The notes beneath the pieces were generated by a model. That model was not told the origin of the DNA. It did no database searches and saw nothing but the letters and a program-made list of their open reading frames with translations. From contig NZ_JACIDJ010000001.1 of NCBI RefSeq assembly GCF_014196305.1, positions 792,290 through 856,289 of the forward strand: a DNA stretch of 64,000 bases, read 5' to 3'. The position numbers were made by a program, and so were the translations under genes. Position 1 is the stretch's first letter. Every line of letters begins with the position of its first letter. The DNA is from Roseococcus suduntuyensis (GTDB lineage: Bacteria; Pseudomonadota; Alphaproteobacteria; Acetobacterales; Acetobacteraceae). Below, piece after piece: positions 8,500-59,521 of the stretch.

Positions 8500-9480
8500 A
8501 TGTTCCGTCGGTCCCTGCTCGCCGCGCCCGCGCTGCTGGCGCTGCCCGCCCATGCCCAGGCCAACTACCCCGAGCGCGCCATCAACGTCGTGGTGGGCTT
8601 CCTGCCGGGCGGCTCGACCGACACGGGCGCGCGGCTGCTGGCCGAGCGGATGGCGCCGCGCCTCGGCCCCAATGCCCGCATGATCGTGGAGAACCGGCCC
8701 GGCGCGGGCGGTTCCGTGGGCGCCGAATATGTCACGCGCCAACCGGCCGATGGCTATCTGCTGACACTCTCCACTGCCTCCGGCCACGCGACCAACCCGG
8801 CCGCGCTGCCCGCCACCGTGCGCTACAACCCGGTGGAGGACTTCACCCACATCGCCGTCATCGGCGGCGGGCCGCTGGTGGTGGCGGTGCCGCGCGCCTC
8901 GCCCCACCGCACCGTCGCGGAACTGATCGCCGCCGCGCGGGCGGCCAACCCGCCCATGCTCTGGGGCAGTTCCGGCGTGGGCGGCATCGGCCATCTGACG
9001 GGCGAGGCCTTCGCGCACCGCGCCGGCATCCGTGGCGAATACGTGCCCTATCGCGGCGGGGCGGCCGTGCTGGAGGCGATGATGAAGAACGAGCTGGGCT
9101 TCTCCTTCGAGGTGATGGCCAGCGCCCTGCCGCATTTGCGCGACGGTTCCTCCCGCCCGCTCGCCGTCACCAGCCGCGCGCGCCATCCGGCCTTGCCTGA
9201 CGTGCCCTCGCTGCACGAGACGGGCATGGAGGGCTTCGACATCATCACCTGGAACGTGCTGCAAGGCCCGCGCGGCATGCCCGCGCCCATCGTGGAGCGG
9301 CTGAACCGCGCGGCGGTGGAGGCGCTCGCCGAGCCCGAACTGCGCCGGCGCATGGTGCAGGCCGGCATCGACCCCGCCGACCCCGCCACGCCCGAGCAGA
9401 CGCGCGCATTCGTGGCGGCGGAGCTGGAGAAGTTTCGCGGGATCGTGCGGGATGCGAACCTTCAGCTGGGGCGAACCTGA
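8500..9480 (+). CDS. Bug-family tripartite tricarboxylate receptor
   Basis: This 326-residue periplasmic binding protein has a signal peptide ending near AHAQ (residue 20). The family signatures are present: INVVVGFLPGGSTD at 28-41, VENRPGAGGSVGAEY near 65, a GSSGVGGIGHLTGE ligand-loop stretch near 158, and VPYRGGAAVLEAM near 185. Bug proteins bind small carboxylates or amides and deliver them to TctAB-type transporters. This copy has no transporter beside it and would have to share one, perhaps tctBA 4 kb away. The ligand is unknown. Confidence 0.9.
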   Translation: MFRRSLLAAPALLALPAHAQANYPERAINVVVGFLPGGSTDTGARLLAERMAPRLGPNARMIVENRPGAGGSVGAEYVTRQPADGYLLTLSTASGHATNPAALPATVRYNPVEDFTHIAVIGGGPLVVAVPRASPHRTVAELIAAARAANPPMLWGSSGVGGIGHLTGEAFAHRAGIRGEYVPYRGGAAVLEAMMKNELGFSFEVMASALPHLRDGSSRPLAVTSRARHPALPDVPSLHETGMEGFDIITWNVLQGPRGMPAPIVERLNRAAVEALAEPELRRRMVQAGIDPADPATPEQTRAFVAAELEKFRGIVRDANLQLGRT

Positions 9481-9495
9481 AGCCTTCGCCCGCCG

Positions 9496-9537
9496 CTGAT
9501 TCACGCCTTCGGTGCTTCGACCGAAGGCGACCAGCCG
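9496..9537 (-). repeat. GAT-hairpin-TGAATC palindrome (family A, locus 2)
   Basis: On the minus strand the order is GCTGGT, then CGCCTTCGGT, loop, ACCGAAGGCG, then TGA-ATCAGC. The 10-bp hairpin at 9504-9529 is perfect with a 6-base loop. It lies between convergent genes (Bug ending at 9480 and the reductase ending at 9639), so it could terminate transcription from both sides. It directly abuts the second repeat family at 9538. Confidence 0.8.
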
Positions 9538-9637
9538 CTGGAGCATGCTGCGTTCACATGCGTTCACGCAGTCTGCTCTAACCTTTGTTGAGAGCGGGAT
9601 TCAGCGTTTTCGGTGATTCCACCTCAACGCATCCCGG
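9538..9637 (+). repeat. Interspersed 100-bp element (family B, copy 1)
   Basis: This segment aligns over its length with the reverse complement of 48009-48100. The best block is TTCAGCGTTTTCGG at 9600-9613, followed by CCTCAACGCA at 9622-9631. The left part begins CTGGAGCA and keeps a weakened form of the hairpin that is perfect in the other copy. It is intergenic and carries no credible gene. Confidence 0.75.
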
Positions 9638-9638
9638 T

Positions 9639-10580
9639 CTAACCCCGCCCCACCGTCTTCCGCGCCAGCGCCACAAGCAATTCCAGCGTGGGCGCGGAGA
9701 CGCCCGCGGCGCGGGCCAGTTGCAGCGGCACCTCCAGCAGCGCGTCGAATTCCAGCGCGCGCCCCGCCTCAAAATCCTGCAGGATGGAGGGGCGGTGCGC
9801 GAGCGTGACCGAGCGCAGCACGTTCTTCTCGATCTCCGGGCCGAGCGGGTGGCCCAGCGCGGCGGCGATCGCCATGCCCTCCTGCATCACGGCCCTCGCG
9901 GCGGCCATCACCACCGGGTCGTTGAAGGTGGTCCGCATGTCCTGCCGGGTGATGAGCGTGATGGGCCCGTTGGTCAGGTTGTTGAGTAGCTTGGTCCAGA
10001 TCTCGGTGCGGATGGCGGGGCTGACCACGCCGCCCATGCCGCCCGCCTCCAGCGCCGCCGCCAGGGCCTTCAGGCGCGGTGTGGCCTCGCCCGAGCGTTC
10101 CCCCATGATGAGGCGGTTGGCCGCCGTCTGCACCTGCACCACGCCAGGCTCGGTCACGGTGCAGGCGGACCACACCACGCCGCCCACGGCGCGATCGAGC
10201 CCCACCGCGGCGCGGGTGACGCCATCGGGGTCCAGCACGTCCGGCGCGTCCTCCCACCACCAGGGAATACCGTTCAGCACGAAGACCACGGGGGTGTCCG
10301 GGCGCAGCAGCGGGCTGATGGCGGCGGCGATGCCCGGCACGGCGGGCGCCTTCACCGTCACCACCACCGCATCCTGCGGGCCAAGGGCGGCGGCATCGGC
10401 CTCGGCGCGGGGGCGGGCGGTGAACTCCTCCTCCGGCGTGCGCACGGTGATGCCGCGCGCGCGGATGGCCTCCAGCTGCGCGCCGCGCGCCAGGACACTG
10501 ACCTCCGCCTGGCCGCCCTTGGCGAAGCGCGCGGTGATGTGGCTGCCGATGGCGCCGGGGCCGAAGACGCAGATCTTCAT
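9639..10580 (-). CDS. Ketopantoate reductase-family NADPH oxidoreductase
   Basis: This 313-residue protein is of the ApbA/PanE type. The N-terminal Rossmann fold has FGPGAIG at 6-12 and a conserved NGI segment near 108. The C-terminal helical domain keeps a lysine in the region TEIWTKLLNN near 195, which matches the catalytic lysine of the family. It could reduce 2-dehydropantoate, but similar enzymes act on other 2-keto acids. Its ATG (10578-10580) overlaps the stop of the creatininase-like gene, and it is the last gene of a three-gene coupled set with an amidohydrolase. That context favours a catabolic role over pantothenate synthesis. Confidence 0.85.
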   Translation of the reverse strand: MKICVFGPGAIGSHITARFAKGGQAEVSVLARGAQLEAIRARGITVRTPEEEFTARPRAEADAAALGPQDAVVVTVKAPAVPGIAAAISPLLRPDTPVVFVLNGIPWWWEDAPDVLDPDGVTRAAVGLDRAVGGVVWSACTVTEPGVVQVQTAANRLIMGERSGEATPRLKALAAALEAGGMGGVVSPAIRTEIWTKLLNNLTNGPITLITRQDMRTTFNDPVVMAAARAVMQEGMAIAAALGHPLGPEIEKNVLRSVTLAHRPSILQDFEAGRALEFDALLEVPLQLARAAGVSAPTLELLVALARKTVGRG

Positions 10581-14914: not shown

Positions 14915-15667
14915 ATGGATCTGCAACTGACGGGCAAGGTGGCGCTGGTGACGGGCGCCTCGGCGGGGCTGGGCCGCGCCATCGCGAAGGAACTGGCGGC
15001 GGAAGGCTGCAAGCTGGCACTCCTCGCGCGGCGGCGCCCGCTGCTGGAGGAACTCGCCGCAGAACTGCCCGCGGGTGCGGAGCCACTGATCATCGTGCAG
15101 GACTTCACCGCGAAGGATGCCGGCGAGAAGGTGCGCGCCGCCATGCAGGCACGCTTTGGCCGCTGTGACATCCTGGTGAACAACGCCGGCAGCAGCCGCC
15201 CGCAGACCGACCTGGGCACCGACGAGGTCTGGATGGAGGCGATGGAGATCAACTTCCACGCCGGCCGCCGCATCACCCATGCGCTGGTGCCGATGATGCA
15301 GGAGAACCAATGGGGCCGCATCATCAACCTGACCGGCCAGGACGAGCCCTTCATGGTGAACGCCGCCAACGCGCCCAACGGCGCGGTGCACATCTGGGCC
15401 AAGGCGCTGTCGCGCGTGCTGGGCCGCGACGGCATCACGGTGAACAGCCTGCCGCCCGGGCGCATCCGCTCCGAGCAGATCGACCAGCGCATCATGCCCA
15501 CCGAGGAAGCACGCCGCGCCTGGGCCGAGCGCGAGGTGCCCGTGGGCTATATCGGCGAGGCGCGTGACATGGCCGTCATCGCCACGTTCCTGTGCTCACC
15601 GCTCGCGCGCTACATCACCGGCCAGGTCATCCATGTGGATGGGGGCACGCGGCGCTTCTCCCACTAG
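14915..15667 (+). CDS. SDR-family protein lacking the catalytic tyrosine
   Basis: The 250-residue protein has a complete Rossmann fold: TGASAGLG at 14-21, an NNAGSS motif near 89 and the C-terminal GQVIHVDGG. The catalytic YxxxK tyrosine is replaced: the lysine is present in VHIWAK, but His occupies the tyrosine position. The upstream serine region reads NLTGQDEP instead of the usual NxSS. The product may bind NAD(P) without normal dehydrogenase activity, or use histidine in place of tyrosine. The gene has GGGAG before its ATG and ends in TAG, the G of which begins the repeat array at 15667. Confidence 0.85.
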   Translation: MDLQLTGKVALVTGASAGLGRAIAKELAAEGCKLALLARRRPLLEELAAELPAGAEPLIIVQDFTAKDAGEKVRAAMQARFGRCDILVNNAGSSRPQTDLGTDEVWMEAMEINFHAGRRITHALVPMMQENQWGRIINLTGQDEPFMVNAANAPNGAVHIWAKALSRVLGRDGITVNSLPPGRIRSEQIDQRIMPTEEARRAWAEREVPVGYIGEARDMAVIATFLCSPLARYITGQVIHVDGGTRRFSH

Positions 15668-15831
15668 CGTCTGATCCGCGGAGGCCGGGAGGCCGGAGCG
15701 GTGAATCAGCCGCTGGTCATCCTGCGTCTGATCCGCGGAGGCCGGAAAGGCCGGAGCGGTGAATCAGCCGCTGGTCATCCTGCGTCTGATCCGCGGAGGC
15801 CGGGAGGCCGGAGCGGTGAATCAGCCGCTGC
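15667..15831 (+). repeat. Three tandem GAT-hairpin-TGAATC units (family A, locus 3)
   Basis: Units begin at 15667, 15724 and 15782, with lengths of 57, 58 and about 50 bases. Each has CGTCT, GAT, the hairpin CCGC-gga-GGCC-ggga-GGCC-gga-GCGG, then TGA-ATCAGCCGCTG. The array separates the convergent SDR and ChaC-like genes and supplies the last codons of the latter. The extra base in the second unit shifts the frame and creates the stop used by that gene. Confidence 0.88.
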
Positions 15832-16376
15832 TCCTCTTCCACCAGCCGCGCGAGTCGCTCCAGCCGCCGGTCCGGCAGCCCCATGGCGCGAAGATGGGCG
15901 GCGGTGTTCAGCAGGTATTCGCGGTTGGGTCCCGCCTGGCCATGGCCGCGCGCAATGGCGGCCACCGTGCTGTCCTCGCAGGGGCGGGCATAGGAGGGGT
16001 GGCGGCGGTCGGCCACATAGGCGATGCCGCGCACCTGCCGGCCGGAGGCCAGGCTCAGCGGCAGCAGCCGGCGTTCATAGACATAGAAGCCGTTCGGGTT
16101 CTCGCGCGCGTCCAGGTATTCCAGCACCGCGGCAGCGTGGGACGCCACGACGCGGAAGGCCACGCCCCGGCAGGCGCCGCCCCGGTCCAGGCCCAGCACC
16201 AGCCCCGGCACCTCCGGCGTGCCGCGATACATGCGCGACCACAGGCAGAACCTGCGGTGATAGCCACGCAACAGGGCGGGCTCGGCGCCCTGGTGGTCGA
16301 ACCCAGGCCGCCAAATGAGCGAGCCATAGGCGAAGACATACAGATGCCCATCGGCATCCAACGGCAGGTGTTGCAC
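15717..16376 (-). CDS. ChaC-like gamma-glutamylcyclotransferase with repeat-derived tail
   Basis: The core is a ChaC-type glutathione-specific gamma-glutamylcyclotransferase, which cleaves glutathione to 5-oxoproline and Cys-Gly. YVFAYGSLIWRPGF near the N-terminus is the substrate-binding loop, and an ENPNGFYVYERR segment follows near 110. The start is uncertain: GTG at 16374-16376 gives 219 residues, while the ATG at 16425-16427 would overlap the divergent DUF2125 start. The last 35 or so residues (two copies of QRLIHRSGL) are encoded by the palindrome array, so this tail is recent and unlikely to be part of the fold. Confidence 0.8.
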   Translation of the reverse strand: MQHLPLDADGHLYVFAYGSLIWRPGFDHQGAEPALLRGYHRRFCLWSRMYRGTPEVPGLVLGLDRGGACRGVAFRVVASHAAAVLEYLDARENPNGFYVYERRLLPLSLASGRQVRGIAYVADRRHPSYARPCEDSTVAAIARGHGQAGPNREYLLNTAAHLRAMGLPDRRLERLARLVEEEQRLIHRSGLPASADQTQDDQRLIHRSGLSGLRGSDAG

Positions 16377-24019: not shown

Positions 24020-25504
24020 ATGACCCCCCCGCCCGCCTTCTCCCCCGCCGAAGCCCGGCGGTCCTTCCTGCGGGCCTTTCCCACCATCGCGGTGGCCATC
24101 TTCATCCCGGCCATCGACACCACCATCACCGCCACCGCCCTGCCCGCCATGGCGGCGGAGTTCGGGGTGGTGGAGCGCATTTCCTGGGTGGTGGTGGCCT
24201 ATCTCATCGCCGCCACCATCGCCGCCCCGGTCTTCGGCCGGCTGGGCGATGCCTTCGGCCGCCGGCGCATGCTGCTGCTGGGATTCGCCATGCAGGGGCT
24301 GGGCATGCTGGCCGCGGGGCTCGCGCCCAGCTTCGAGGCCCTGCTGGCCGCCCGCCTGCTGCAAGGCTTCGGCGGCGGCGCCCTGCTGACCCTGGCCATG
24401 GCGCTGATCGGCGAAAGCCTGCCGCCGCGCGAACGCGGCCGTTACCAGGGCTACCTGGTGGCCTGCTTCATGAGCGCCTCGGCCACCGGCCCGCTGGCGG
24501 GTGGGTGGCTCACCCAGGCCTTCGGCTGGCCGGCGGTGTTCCTGGCCGGGCTGCCGCTGGTGATCCTGGGGGCGTTGGCCGCCTATACCTTGCCGCGCCG
24601 GCCCCTCTCCGGCGCTGGCTTCCGCTTCGACCTGCCGGGCACGCTGCTCTTTGCCGTGTTCGTGGTGACGCTGGTGCTGATGCTGGACCGCATCCAGGCC
24701 CTGCGCTGGGATGCGGCGGTCTGGGCCGCCGTGTTCGGCCTGATGGCGCTGGGCGCCCTGCTGGCGCTGGGCTTCGTCGAGCGCCGCGTGCCCGACCCGC
24801 TGCTGCCCCTGCCTTTGCTGGCCCACCCGGCCATCTGGCGCCTGTCCATCCTGTCGGCCTGCGTGCAGGGGGTGCTGGTGGCGCTGATCTCCTTCCTGCC
24901 GCTATATCTGTACGCGGTGCGGGACGTGCCGCTGGCCACCGTGGGCGTGCTGCTGCTGCCGATGAGCGTGGGCGGCGGGGTGGGCGCCTTGATCTCCGGG
25001 CAGTTCATGGCGCGCACGGGGCGGAACATGCTGCTGCCCTCCATCGGGCTCACGGCCTCGGCCGTGCTGCTGTCGGGGCTGGCCTTTGTGGCGCAGGACA
25101 TTCCCCTGGCCTGGCTGCCCTGGGTGCTGGGGGTGGTCAGCTTCTGCTTCGGCACCTCCTTCCCCGTGGTGCAGACCACGGTGCAGGTGGCGGCGGGGCC
25201 GGGGCAGCTCGGTGTCGCCACCGCCTCGGTGCAGTTCATGCGGAACCTGGGCTCGGCGGCGGGGACGGCCATCCTGGGCACCGTCATCTTCGGCAGCTTC
25301 GCCCTGGCCGATGCCGCCCTGGCCGAGCGTTTCGCCTCCGTGCTGCGCGGCGGGCGAGAGGCGCTCGCCGCGCTGCCGGTGCTGGAGAGGGCCGCCATGG
25401 CGGCGGGCCTCTCGGGCGGCTACCGCGCCATGTTCGCGGGGGCCGCGGCCATCATGGCCTTGGCCGCCGTGATGGCCTGGCGGGTGCCGCTGCGGCGGGT
25501 CTGA
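24020..25504 (+). CDS. MFS multidrug exporter, DHA2/14-TM type
   Basis: This 494-residue major facilitator has about 14 membrane helices. Motif A appears as GRLGDAFGRRRMLLLG near 73-88, and an acidic DTTITATALPAM in helix 1 (near 34-45) matches drug-proton antiporters of the EmrB/QacA group. A motif-C-like stretch is present in helix 5. The substrate cannot be told. It follows accA by four bases but probably has an unrelated role. Confidence 0.9.
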   Translation: MTPPPAFSPAEARRSFLRAFPTIAVAIFIPAIDTTITATALPAMAAEFGVVERISWVVVAYLIAATIAAPVFGRLGDAFGRRRMLLLGFAMQGLGMLAAGLAPSFEALLAARLLQGFGGGALLTLAMALIGESLPPRERGRYQGYLVACFMSASATGPLAGGWLTQAFGWPAVFLAGLPLVILGALAAYTLPRRPLSGAGFRFDLPGTLLFAVFVVTLVLMLDRIQALRWDAAVWAAVFGLMALGALLALGFVERRVPDPLLPLPLLAHPAIWRLSILSACVQGVLVALISFLPLYLYAVRDVPLATVGVLLLPMSVGGGVGALISGQFMARTGRNMLLPSIGLTASAVLLSGLAFVAQDIPLAWLPWVLGVVSFCFGTSFPVVQTTVQVAAGPGQLGVATASVQFMRNLGSAAGTAILGTVIFGSFALADAALAERFASVLRGGREALAALPVLERAAMAAGLSGGYRAMFAGAAAIMALAAVMAWRVPLRRV

Positions 25505-25552
25505 GCCTTGGCGCCTGATCCGTGGCGGTGAATCAGGCGCCCCGACAAGGCT
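25504..25552 (+). terminator. Bidirectional terminator of the GAT-hairpin-TGAATC family (family A, locus 4)
   Basis: GGCGCCTGAT at 25510-25519 pairs perfectly with ATCAGGCGCC at 25532-25541. The outer AGCCTTG at 25504-25510 can pair with CAAGGCT at 25546-25552. Inside lie CCG-tgg-CGG and TGA, giving the family order GAT, hairpin, TGA, ATC. It separates the convergent MFS and SDR genes, overlapping the SDR stop. Confidence 0.8.
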
Positions 25553-45575: not shown

Positions 45576-46850
45576 ATGGCGCGGACACCCGACGACACGA
45601 AGAAGCCCGCCCGCAAGCCCGCGGCCCGGACGGCGAAGCCCAGCACCCGGGCCAAGCCCCCGGTGCGCGAGGCGGCGGCGAAGGCTCCCCCGCGGGACGC
45701 CGCGAAGGCCCCCCCGCGGCACGCCGCGAAGGCCCCGCAGCGGGACGCCTCGAAGAAGGCGGCGCCGCGCGGCGATGCCAAGCCGGTCGCCCCGCGTGGT
45801 GGTGCCACGCCGGTCGCCCCGCGTGGCGGTGCCAGGACGGCAGCCCCGCGAGGCGCGGCAAAGCCGTCGGCCCCGCGTGGCGCGGCCCGGCCGACCGCCA
45901 CCCGGGATGGCGGCGACACCAAGCCTCGCGCCGGCGGCAAGGCGACGCCGACCCGCGCCCCGGCCGCCGGGAAGGCCCCCCGCGCCGCCGCCGCCGCGCC
46001 CCGCGCCGCGCGGTCCGAGGCACAGGCGCCCGCGCGCAAGCGTGCCGCCCCGGCCGAGGCCAGCCCCGCCCGCCGTGGCCGCGCCGAAGCGCCGGCTCCC
46101 GCCCGGCGCGCCGCCGCGACGCCGGGCGCCAAGCCCGCCCCACGTCGCCGTGCCGCGCCGCCCGAGCCCACGCCGGCCAAGCGCAGCACCACGGCCAATG
46201 TGCGCGCCACGCCGCGCGGCACCTCGGCCGCGACGCCGCGCGCTGCCGCCGGAACGGTGAAGCCGCGTGCCACTGGTGCCGCCTCGCGCGCTTCCAGCGC
46301 TGCGTCACCCAAGCGCTCTTCCTCCGGAACGGCCGCCCCGCGCACCTCCGGCGCGGCTTCAGCCCCGCGCGCCTCCAGCGCGACGTCCAAGCGCGCCTCC
46401 GGCGAGACCAAGCCCGACGCCGCCGCCAAGCCCCGCCCCATCGCCCCGCGCCGCAAGGCGGGCAAGCGCGTGCCGATGGACCGCGACCGCCTGGCCGCGC
46501 TGGTCGCCGTCGCGGTGAAGAGCCTGGAGGATGACAAGGCCGAGGATGTGGTCGTGCTCGACGTCACCGGCCGCGCCAGCTTCACCGACCGCATGGTGAT
46601 CGCCACCGGCCTCGTGGAGCGGCAGATCGAGGCGATGGCCACGCACCTCGTGGAAAACCTGGGCAAGGAAGGCCTGCGCCTGAAGCGCGACGCCATCCAG
46701 GGCAGCGAGGACTGGGTGCTGATCGACGCGGGCGACCTCGTCATCCATCTGTTCAAGCCCGAAGCGCGCCAGGCCTATGACCTGGAGAAGATGTGGGGCC
46801 CCGACAGCCCGCTGGGCGAAGCGGCACCCGGCGAGCAATCGCCCATTTGA
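45576..46850 (+). CDS. rsfS: Ribosome silencing factor RsfS with long basic N-terminal extension
   Basis: The last 124 residues (301-424) are RsfS, which binds L14 and blocks subunit joining: [21 protein letters not shown] near 323 and [16 protein letters not shown] near 378 are conserved. Ahead of it lie 300 residues of Ala, Arg, Pro, Lys, Thr and Ser, a disordered basic region like the tails of histone H1-like proteins. The frame opens 10 bases after nadD, which supports the long form. ATG 46476 would give a normal-sized RsfS, so both forms may be made. The extension could bind rRNA or DNA. Confidence 0.85.
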
Positions 46851-52504: not shown

Positions 52505-52599
52505 CGCCCGGCCGAATTACGCCGCCGGCTGCGCCGGGACGATCGGACGTGATCGCCCGGCCGATTTACGCCGCTGACTGCACCAGCGACGATCGGACG
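52505..52599 (-). repeat. Two GAT-hairpin-TAA-ATC palindromes (family A, locus 6)
   Basis: Two imperfect copies at 52505-52549 and 52554-52599. On the minus strand each reads CGTCC-GAT, a hairpin (CGCTG with CAGCG in one, CCGGC with GCCGG in the other), TAA, then ATC or TTC and GGCCGGGCG. TAA replaces the TGA of the other loci. The array lies between the convergent gshB and trpE genes, just past the trpE TAG. Confidence 0.8.
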
Positions 52600-52603
52600 G
52601 CGC

Positions 52604-58007: not shown

Positions 58008-58649
58008 ATGATCGTCCGCCGCGCCCTGCCCGCCCTGTTCTTCGCAACCCCGGCCCTGGCCCAGCGCCTGTCGCCGCTGGAGGCCACTTCGCCGGAGGCC
58101 GCGCCCCTGCTGGCCCGGCTACGCGCGGGCGGCCACACCCTGTTCTTCCGCCACGCCGATACCGCCGGCGAACCCTGTGACCGCAGCTACCGCGTGGGCG
58201 ACCGCGGCGGGCAGCGCAACATCTCCCCGCGCGGGCGCGCGCAATCGGCCCGCATCGGCGCAAGGCTGCGCGAACTGGGCGTGCCGGTGGCGCTGCCCGT
58301 GCTGGCCGGCCCCGTCTATCGCGCGCGCGACACGGCGGAGCATGCCTTCGGCGCGGAGAACGTGGTGGTGACGGACGAGCTGCTGGCCGATGACTATTCC
58401 GGCCCGCGCCTGTCCTGGGTGCTGGACCAGCACCGCCGCCTGCTGGCCGAAATCCCGCCGCCGGGGGTGAACCGCGTGCTGGTGGGCCACCGCACGCCCC
58501 CCATCATGATCATGGGCGACCCGGTGGCCGGGCGCGCCTTCCCGGAGGGCGGCGCGCTGGTGGTGGAACCCCTGGGGCCGGAGGGCTTCCGCCTGCACGG
58601 CATCGTGGAATTCGCCCCCATCCCCGGGGGCGGGTTTCATGCCTGCTAG
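58008..58649 (+). CDS. Exported histidine phosphatase-family protein
   Basis: This 213-residue protein has a signal peptide (cleavage near ALAQ, residue 19) and a histidine phosphatase core. The RHG motif is RHA here (Arg48, His49 in FFRHADT), and a second His lies in LVGHRTPP near 166. The third conserved residue of RHG varies in many exported relatives. The substrate is unknown. It ends in TAG, immediately followed by a GAT-hairpin-TGAATC element. Confidence 0.82.
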   Translation: MIVRRALPALFFATPALAQRLSPLEATSPEAAPLLARLRAGGHTLFFRHADTAGEPCDRSYRVGDRGGQRNISPRGRAQSARIGARLRELGVPVALPVLAGPVYRARDTAEHAFGAENVVVTDELLADDYSGPRLSWVLDQHRRLLAEIPPPGVNRVLVGHRTPPIMIMGDPVAGRAFPEGGALVVEPLGPEGFRLHGIVEFAPIPGGGFHAC

Positions 58650-58690
58650 CGTCCGATCGCCTTCGGCGGGATCGCCGAAGGCGTGAATCG
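58649..58690 (+). repeat. GAT-hairpin-TGAATC palindrome (family A, locus 5)
   Basis: CCGAT at 58653-58657, then CGCCTTCGGC at 58658-58667, a 6-base loop, GCCGAAGGCG at 58674-58683, then TGA and ATCGG at 58686-58690. The inner 10-bp and outer 5-bp stems are both perfect. It begins on the last base of the phosphatase TAG and lies between convergent genes. Confidence 0.85.
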
Positions 58691-58696
58691 GCCGCT

Positions 58697-59521
58697 TCAG
58701 GTCGAGGCTGAAGCGGCCGCCACCACCTGGCGCTCCAGATGCGCCACCAACTCGGCCGGAATGCCGAGGCGGTGGGCCAGCGCGTCCAGATAGACGCGCT
58801 CGGCCGGCTGGTCGGGGTCCATGGCGAGGCGCGAGGCCAGCCAGAGTTCCGCCGCCTGCTCGGGCGAATTGGCGGCGGCGGCCACCTCCTCCACGCCGAT
58901 GCGCTGGTTCAGCAGGGTGAAGACGAAGCCCTTGGCGGCGGGATCCAGCGAGGAACGCTCCACCTGCTCGAAGATCTTCGACCGTTCGGCGGCGTCGATA
59001 TGCCCATCGGCCTGGGCGGCGCCGACCATGGCGCGGATGAGGGAAAGCTCGAAGGGCTCGCCCGCCGCGGCCTCGGTGGCACCAGGGATGAAGGCGGTGT
59101 CGGCCGCGGCATCGGGCGGCGCGGCCGGGGGCGCCGAGGCCGGCTGCTGCCCCGCCTGCCAGTTCTGCCAGGCGCGATAGGCCAGCGCGCCCAGCGCCGC
59201 CGCCCCGCCATGGGTCAGCACGCTGCGGGCCGCGCCGCGCTTGCCGCCGAACAGCGTGCCCAGCAGGCCACCGGCGGCCAGCCCGCCCAGCGCCGCCCCG
59301 CCAGGCCCGGCGCCGGCCAGCAGGTCCCGCGCACGGTCGGTCAGGCTGCCCTGGCCTTGCGGGGCGGGCTTGGTCTGCGGAGGGGCGCTCGGCCATTGCG
59401 CGGGCCAGGGCGACTGCGCCTTTGCCGGCGGCTTGCCGGGCGGGAGCTGCCAGGGGCTGCCGCCGTGCGCGGTGCCGCCCCTTCCCAGGAATTGTTCGAG
59501 CAGCGACTTCGGATCCATCAT
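58697..59521 (-). CDS. DUF533 (TerB/YebE-like) protein
   Basis: The 274-residue product has a Gln/Pro-rich N-terminal region, a glycine-rich hydrophobic hairpin (about 73-100, GGAALGGLAAGGLLGTLFGG near 75), and a C-terminal helical TerB-like domain (about 160-270) with DGHIDAAERSKIFEQV near 185. DUF533 proteins are inner-membrane-associated and of unknown function, sometimes induced by envelope stress. Two ATGs lie together at 59516-59521; the first is used. Confidence 0.85.
   Translation of the reverse strand: MMDPKSLLEQFLGRGGTAHGGSPWQLPPGKPPAKAQSPWPAQWPSAPPQTKPAPQGQGSLTDRARDLLAGAGPGGAALGGLAAGGLLGTLFGGKRGAARSVLTHGGAAALGALAYRAWQNWQAGQQPASAPPAAPPDAAADTAFIPGATEAAAGEPFELSLIRAMVGAAQADGHIDAAERSKIFEQVERSSLDPAAKGFVFTLLNQRIGVEEVAAAANSPEQAAELWLASRLAMDPDQPAERVYLDALAHRLGIPAELVAHLERQVVAAASAST

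Follow-up and report, generated by a model that had tools for sequence, protein, structure and literature searches.

The window, by which we mean the whole 64,000-nucleotide stretch of DNA analysed here, spans positions 792290 to 856289 of contig C1 of Roseococcus suduntuyensis, whose 4.14 Mb genome lies in 17 contigs (genome G000 in the comparisons below). At 58649-58695, on the plus strand, it holds a palindromic element that fills the gap between two convergent stops, a TAG ending at 58649 and a TCA starting at 58697. This copy, which reads GCG-T-CCGAT-CGCCTTCGGC-GGGATC-GCCGAAGGCG-TGA-ATCGG-C-CGC, belongs to a DNA repeat with a unit of about 47 nt that forms a hairpin with a bulge on one side. 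From 5' to 3', the element consists of the outer stem (t)AGCG, a mismatch of one base, two varying pairs, GAT, a hairpin, TGA, ATC and the outer stem CGCT. The outer stem (t)AGCG pairs with CGCT and GAT pairs with ATC, and between the 3' arm of the hairpin and ATC the TGA (rarely TAA) leaves three bases unpaired on the 3' side, which upholds the proposal of a preliminary description of this DNA that an unpaired TRA gives each copy a direction. The letters of the hairpin vary freely from copy to copy with the pairing kept.

The preliminary description had assigned one plan to six loci in the window, and all six are present, reading (outer stem)-GRT-hairpin-TRA-WTC-(outer stem) in element orientation. 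It had placed five of them between convergent genes and the sixth at the window edge; our home-made gene caller puts all six, the edge locus included, at convergent gene ends. The edge locus is a plus-strand tandem array at 1-155 with three visible copies and a period of 57 (cores 1-35, 58-92 and 115-149), which starts upstream of the window, before an N run; the TAG of the first unit, 105 bases before the window, ends a plus-strand gene, and a minus-strand gene ends at 166. The N run itself (96 N, L070 12194-12289) lies between the first array unit and the window start, interrupting the array, and is perhaps an assembly gap caused by repeats. A single minus-strand copy at 9492-9538, with the previously noted GGT replacing GAT, follows a plus-strand gene ending at 9480 and faces a minus-strand gene ending at 9639 (home-made gene caller). 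Three plus-strand copies (15667-15713, 15724-15771 and 15782-15828) make up the array at 15667-15831: the plus-strand gene 14915-15667 stops with a TAG whose last base is the first base of the array, and the array overlaps the 3' end of the minus-strand ORF 15717-16376 and encodes its C-terminal tail. The repeated peptide RLIHRSGL of this ORF comes from the array. A short plus-strand copy, CCG-TGG-CGG, with the long outer stem GGCGCCTGAT/ATCAGGCGCC, occupies 25507-25544 in the gap between convergent genes ending at 25504 and 25551. The 52505 locus has two minus-strand copies, a degenerate one at 52508-52550 with TAATTC, confirming the earlier report of TTC for ATC in one copy there, which folds no better than shuffled sequence, and one at 52557-52600 with a TAA bulge (GTAAATC) and the outer stem CCG/CGG replacing GCG/CGC. 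All nine GTGAATC heptamers of the window fall inside elements. Eight window copies gave RNA folding z-scores of -1.80, -3.74, -2.62, -3.71, -5.01, -2.39, -0.03 and -3.75, on account of which we regard the copies at 115 and 52544 as weak. The window also carries short tandem repeats at 2688-2782 (three copies, period 30) and 45675-45746 (three copies of a 24-base unit).

The element is abundant beyond the window. In the own genome the pattern GATCN{5,35}GTGAATC was found 296 times, with a few overlaps, against one match for the backward pattern; this control is lenient, since reversal puts CTAG, a tetramer uncommon in bacteria, into the pattern. Location, spacing and structure were counted in 1.18 Mb of contig C1, with a gene caller and a terminator scan that were both home-made. 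In this sample 124 of 161 GTRAATC heptamers keep a stem, giving 124 copies in 75 loci (123 or 134 copies under slightly different definitions), and 33 loci contain two to five copies each, in head-to-tail order in 33 of 33 cases. As expected of REP sequences by a general definition (PMC12306157), the copies are palindromic, mutually similar, short and numerous, the unit of about 47 nt being slightly longer than the 20-40 bp given in the excerpted REP survey (PMC3733652), and they are extragenic, only 3 of the 124 sampled copies being classed as genic by the home-made gene caller. A replication-polar (KOPS-like) reading was rejected: after 387 kb of C1 the matches listed are on the plus strand only, yet the sequence there holds many minus-strand copies. 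The element matches of the relative G004 are on mixed strands.

Consistent with the preference for convergent ends claimed in the preliminary description, copies in the sampled part of C1 concentrate at the 3' ends of genes and are not placed randomly with respect to them. Among gaps of at least 35 nt, an element is found in 35 of 75 convergent gaps; the figures are 29 of 326 for co-directional gaps and 5 of 141 for divergent ones (Fisher p 5e-13 and 2e-14, respectively, for convergent against co-directional and divergent gaps). In 21 of 36 convergent gaps no more than 15 bases are left on either side of the array. In 20 of 44 copies facing a gene end, a TAG of the element at one fixed offset serves as the stop of that gene, and a TAG stands at that offset in 10 of the 79 other copies. 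In co-directional gaps the element has the same orientation as the genes in 17 cases and the opposite one in 13.

We then compared the paired arms. For 57 gapless own-genome copies the covariation score over the 35-nt core was 0.402, as against 0.115 in shuffled and at most 0.120 in slid controls; 89.1% of cells were paired (72.6% when shuffled), 177 cells were doubly changed, and changes on both sides occurred in 14 of 20 pairs. Because only copies with a 35-nt core and three or more hairpin pairs were admitted, pairing in the lower hairpin is partly a product of that choice; the choice did not extend to the outer stem, which was 92.6% paired with 6 of 9 pairs doubly changed. In 29 copies from 11 genomes the covariation score was 0.474 versus 0.135. 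Thus covariation within the genome and across genera, with many compensatory changes in arms outside the window loci, bears out the earlier claim of selection on structure, and we conclude that the structure of the element is under selection. The nearly invariant parts form a foot made up of GAT/ATC, the adjoining C-G pair and the TGA bulge. A pyrimidine-pyrimidine mismatch separates the outer stem parts in 108 of 123 C1 copies (TC 66, CT 23, CC 17, TT 2); it is looser in other genera (37 of 72), where the commonest pair is C-G.

Where one strand has a G-T wobble, its complement has an A-C clash, and wobbles can therefore be assigned to a strand. In the first four hairpin pairs, counting once per locus position, wobbles on the element strand and on the other strand stood at 14:1 in C1, 4:0 in G004 and 7:0 in G003, a total of 25:1 (p 8e-7) in which loci common to the three genomes are counted repeatedly. 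The asymmetry of the hairpin is not seen in other genera (4:4), the outer stem does not have it (3:4, 2:0 and 2:1), and copies opposite to co-directional genes gave 1:0, too few cases. By predicted folding energy, the element strand is the more stable one in four of six window copies, equal in one and less stable in one. What is read in this genus may be one of the strands in folded single-stranded form, as RNA or as DNA. The presence of both orientations in co-directional gaps inclines us towards single-stranded DNA, the form in which REPs moved by RAYTs act.

The preliminary description had also suggested REP-like mobility, and filled versus empty orthologous sites support it. Two close relatives, G003 and G004, were used, own-genome flanks being 88-99% identical to G004. 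Among 20 G000 loci with flanks in both relatives, the element was found in both at 6, in one at 7 and in neither at 7. At five of these last (807961, 926856, 943598, 990061 and 1034532) the empty site is nearly identical in both relatives; the other two show differing empty sites (984678) and a remnant in G003 (801786). In the reverse test with 12 G004 loci having flanks in both other genomes, the element was in both at 5, in one at 6 and in neither at 1. At 807961 and 943598 the stop codon is TGA in both relatives and the element's TAG in G000, the empty/filled junctions being CCCAC-TGA/TAG and GATC-TGA/TAG. No clean target-site duplication was seen at the G000 gain junctions and some target bases are often lost, which makes replacement by recombination possible. 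Array size also differs at common loci, for example 4 versus 2 or 3 versus 2 copies. In pairwise scoring at most 15 of 30 G000 loci were absent from G004 and 4 of 20 G004 loci from G000, counts which are upper limits because pattern scoring missed variant elements: at 921844, scored as absent, the G004 element has a TTA bulge. A remnant stands at 895162, and at 1101898 and 1133868 the alignment of the flanks is ambiguous. As for the window, the copy at 58649 is present in G004 and was not found in G003, and the orthologs of the 25507 copy are, in G004, an element with identical arms and a CCA loop and, in G003, a palindrome without the bulge. These differences in presence and array size are best read as recent gains, the direction of which rests on parsimony with two relatives.

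Some further observations were made at orthologous sites. The element at 910811 of G000 C1 is on the plus strand, and the orthologous gap of G004 has an element on the other strand with a GTAAATC foot. At about 3254588-3254690 of C1 in G004, the element is followed by a second palindrome, GGAGCGGTGTTCAC-TTGT-GTGAACACCGCTC and then TAG, possibly a second repeat family. Locus 936417 was considered as a paired replacement of arms and rejected, its arms being only partly paired.

Following the proposal that the whole genome and related genera be scanned, we found copies in both. By the glutathione synthetase gene, the closest named genomes are Roseococcus thiosulfatophilus (96%), followed by Rubritepida flocculans (90%) and others. 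Our model R1 matched 32 of 60 relatives, comprising all 21 genomes of the genus, 9 of 15 other family members and 2 of 24 genomes outside the family; in a class-wide draw it matched 6 of 289 genomes, the own included, at E 1e-6. Over 200 family genomes the pattern counts were patchy, from 4 to 345, and element-poor genomes had about 4 to 50 pattern matches, those listed being mostly stemless. With model R2, at E 1e-5, at least 20 of 385 alphaproteobacterial genomes matched, the own included, a lower bound since no more than 14 candidates were scored per genome. The 19 other genomes belong to 17 families; four of them (G249, G362, G475 and G490) were part of the training of the model, which leaves 15 genomes in 14 families outside the training set. 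CTAGAG or TTAGAG stands in front of 18 of the 27 outside loci listed (counted by eye), and the arms of these loci are widely different and mostly paired. G490 has 216 pattern matches, a number inflated by overlapping starts. Neither CTAGAGC nor AGAGCATGAT occurred in the single 50 kb stretch inspected from pSymB of Sinorhizobium meliloti. G160 has repeated occurrences of the 19-mer GATCAGCATCCTGTGAATC, several of them at the start of a contig, and this 19-mer is probably the end of another repeat.

A RAYT-type transposase had been suggested as the enzyme to look for, and none was found in the own genome, which has no match to the Y1 transposase family PF01797. This family was present in 1 of 21 genomes of the genus (G016, which has 8 element matches), in 8 of 60 relatives and in 2 of 14 other element-rich genomes. 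With zero PF01797 matches, a RAYT origin was rejected for the own genome, and our search for a mobilising enzyme, in which PF01797 was the family sought, found none.

How does the element relate to known repeats? According to the sections of Di Nocera 2013 drawn on here (PMC3733652), REPs fall into a GTAG superfamily, which has RAYTs, and a CGTC superfamily, for which no transposase is known, both lying mostly at gene ends. The GTAG REPs (those of E. coli and Pseudomonas and the SMAG of Stenotrophomonas, associated with RAYTs) resemble the element as short extragenic palindromes at 3' ends, described in these sections as lying mostly between convergent or unidirectional genes with termini that often provide TAG stops (PMC3733652). 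The E. coli REP consensus GCCGGATGCGGCGTGAACGCCTTATCCGGCCTACGA, as quoted in the part of a second source used here (PMC12306157), admits the reading outer stem-GAT-inner stem-short bulge-ATC-outer stem, which is our own. Unlike GTAG REPs, however, only 13 of 134 C1 copies are preceded by GTAG, the commonest tetramer being CTAG with 16; CTAG precedes 37 of 72 copies in other genera. The multi-copy loci of the element are moreover head-to-tail only, and its genome is without a Y1 transposase match. The likeness to CGTC REPs consists in a mostly alphaproteobacterial occurrence, the lack of a known transposase and the gene-end preference common to both superfamilies, as far as the same sections go (PMC3733652), and in a CGTC before the foot of 62 of 134 C1 copies. 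In other genera, however, just 4 of 72 copies have CGTC. As these REPs are characterised in the sections used, they have an unpaired CGTC head, AT at the first two stem positions and a CCA tail and form mostly head-to-head dimers, whereas in the element the CG pairs within the outer stem, next to GAT comes mostly a T-A or C-G pair and then a C-G pair, only 11 of 134 C1 copies have CCA in their 3' flank, and all 33 multi-copy loci are head-to-tail. CGTC repeats were said there to be absent from Acetobacteraceae (PMC3733652), and in the same family 1,369 REPs were assigned automatically to Lichenicola cladoniae, according to the excerpt considered, which gives no motif for them (PMC12306157); NCBI taxonomy today places Roseococcus in Roseomonadaceae.

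Among RNA families, no Rfam 15 entry scored above its gathering threshold in the window or in eight related loci. The best relevant match was RF02600 (Brucella sRNA CI27) to an element of G134 (L311 1409-1565), at 26.3 bits compared with a gathering score of 59.8, and we treat it as a lead only, because the score is below the curated cut-off. RF02600, presumably linked to Bru-RS repeats, resembles the element in its outer stem, inner hairpin, unpaired bases ahead of the closing arm and A-rich tail and differs from it in its GUC/GAC foot and longer bulge; rhizobial repeats may share the plan of the element. The earlier statement that this family had not been described holds as far as our searches of open PubMed Central papers go, which turned up no description of it (motif queries were sampled in part), with the qualification that REPs in general are a familiar kind of element and that RF02600 is similar below threshold. 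Since the element fails the defining features of both superfamilies and yet looks and sits like a REP, we class it among the REPs, perhaps as a third superfamily.

The preliminary description had also considered a bidirectional terminator, and the strong preference for convergent gaps would suit a dedicated terminator or mRNA 3'-end structure that is read as RNA and kept at convergent ends for that purpose. Like intrinsic (Rho-independent) terminators, the element is a G+C-rich hairpin shortly after stop codons, and G-U wobbles but hardly any A-C pairs occur in its arms within the genus. The only positive hint of terminator function is that, in our home-made scan, canonical hairpin-plus-T-run terminators occurred in just 3 of the 35 convergent gaps that hold an element, as against 16 of the 40 that do not (Fisher p 0.003). 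However, no T-run follows the hairpin in the 3' flank consensus of 123 copies; in co-directional gaps the element is orientation-neutral, and terminators are no scarcer with it (4 of 29 gaps) than without it (49 of 297, p 1.0); and intrinsic terminators have neither its bulge nor its mismatch. Element-filled gaps also leave little space for a second hairpin, orthologous gaps of close relatives are often element-free, five divergent gaps hold elements as well, and pattern counts within the family run from 4 to 345. The terminator part of the earlier proposal thus retains one weak hint, and we consider a dedicated terminator improbable.

Far less probable in our view is that the element is a double-stranded site, for instance for CcrM (GANTC) methylation or a nucleoid protein, placed clear of genes. 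CcrM is typical of Alphaproteobacteria, GAATC is contained in most copies, and 148 of the 895 GANTC sites of the sampled 1.18 Mb lie inside 123 element copies; copies with TAAATC or TAATTC, however, have no GANTC there, and a duplex site leaves the paired variable arms, the conserved TGA bulge, the frequent pyrimidine mismatch and the strand-specific wobble unexplained. For orientation, the 123 copies make up about half a percent of sampled C1, and the commonest NNGAATC heptamer is GTGAATC. Hairpin-templated mutation, by which palindrome arms would be repaired into complementarity without selection or mobility, fits locus 921844, where G000 and G004 have a common outer stem and both hairpin arms differ, still paired at 10 of 11 and 11 of 11 positions. 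Such repair should, however, also remove the bulge and the pyrimidine mismatch, which most copies keep (the bulge-less G003 ortholog of the 25507 copy is an exception), and it does not account for copies at sites empty in two relatives; we give it the least credence of all.

The element is thus apparently REP-like and mobile rather than a dedicated terminator, and we think it probable that it represents a family of non-autonomous palindromic DNA elements that would be moved by a trans-acting enzyme other than a RAYT of the own genome and would survive behind stop codons. In the mechanism that we propose, an enzyme acting in trans, different from any RAYT of the own genome, would recognise one strand folded as a hairpin through the parts that do not vary (T-A-G end, GATC/GTGAATC foot, TGA bulge), which would leave the arms free to drift as long as pairing is kept. 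New copies would survive where they are least harmful, just after stop codons and above all between convergent genes, often supplying the stop (TAG) themselves, and arrays would then grow and shrink through local duplication. Once placed, the hairpins may secondarily serve as 3'-end structures or weak terminators.

A wider proposal, which we put forward tentatively and hold to be somewhat less probable than its opposite, is that the family constitutes a third REP superfamily extending across the Alphaproteobacteria. Its marks would be a CTAG-type end, the GATC/GTGAATC foot, the TGA bulge, in this genus a retained pyrimidine mismatch, and freely changing arms; an enzyme reading one folded DNA strand would spread it and place copies behind stops. 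If true, palindromes would here be mobile without any dependence on RAYTs. The element family is abundant in a lineage close to one reported, in the sections of the survey drawn on above, to be without CGTC repeats (PMC3733652). The gains appear recent enough for their junctions to be read, with close relatives that do and do not have copies at the same sites, and the fixed bulge is a possible bait for the recognition protein. Finally, with its differing hairpins at the ends of genes, the family offers a natural collection of variants with which to study termination and the stability of mRNA in a G+C-rich alphaproteobacterium.
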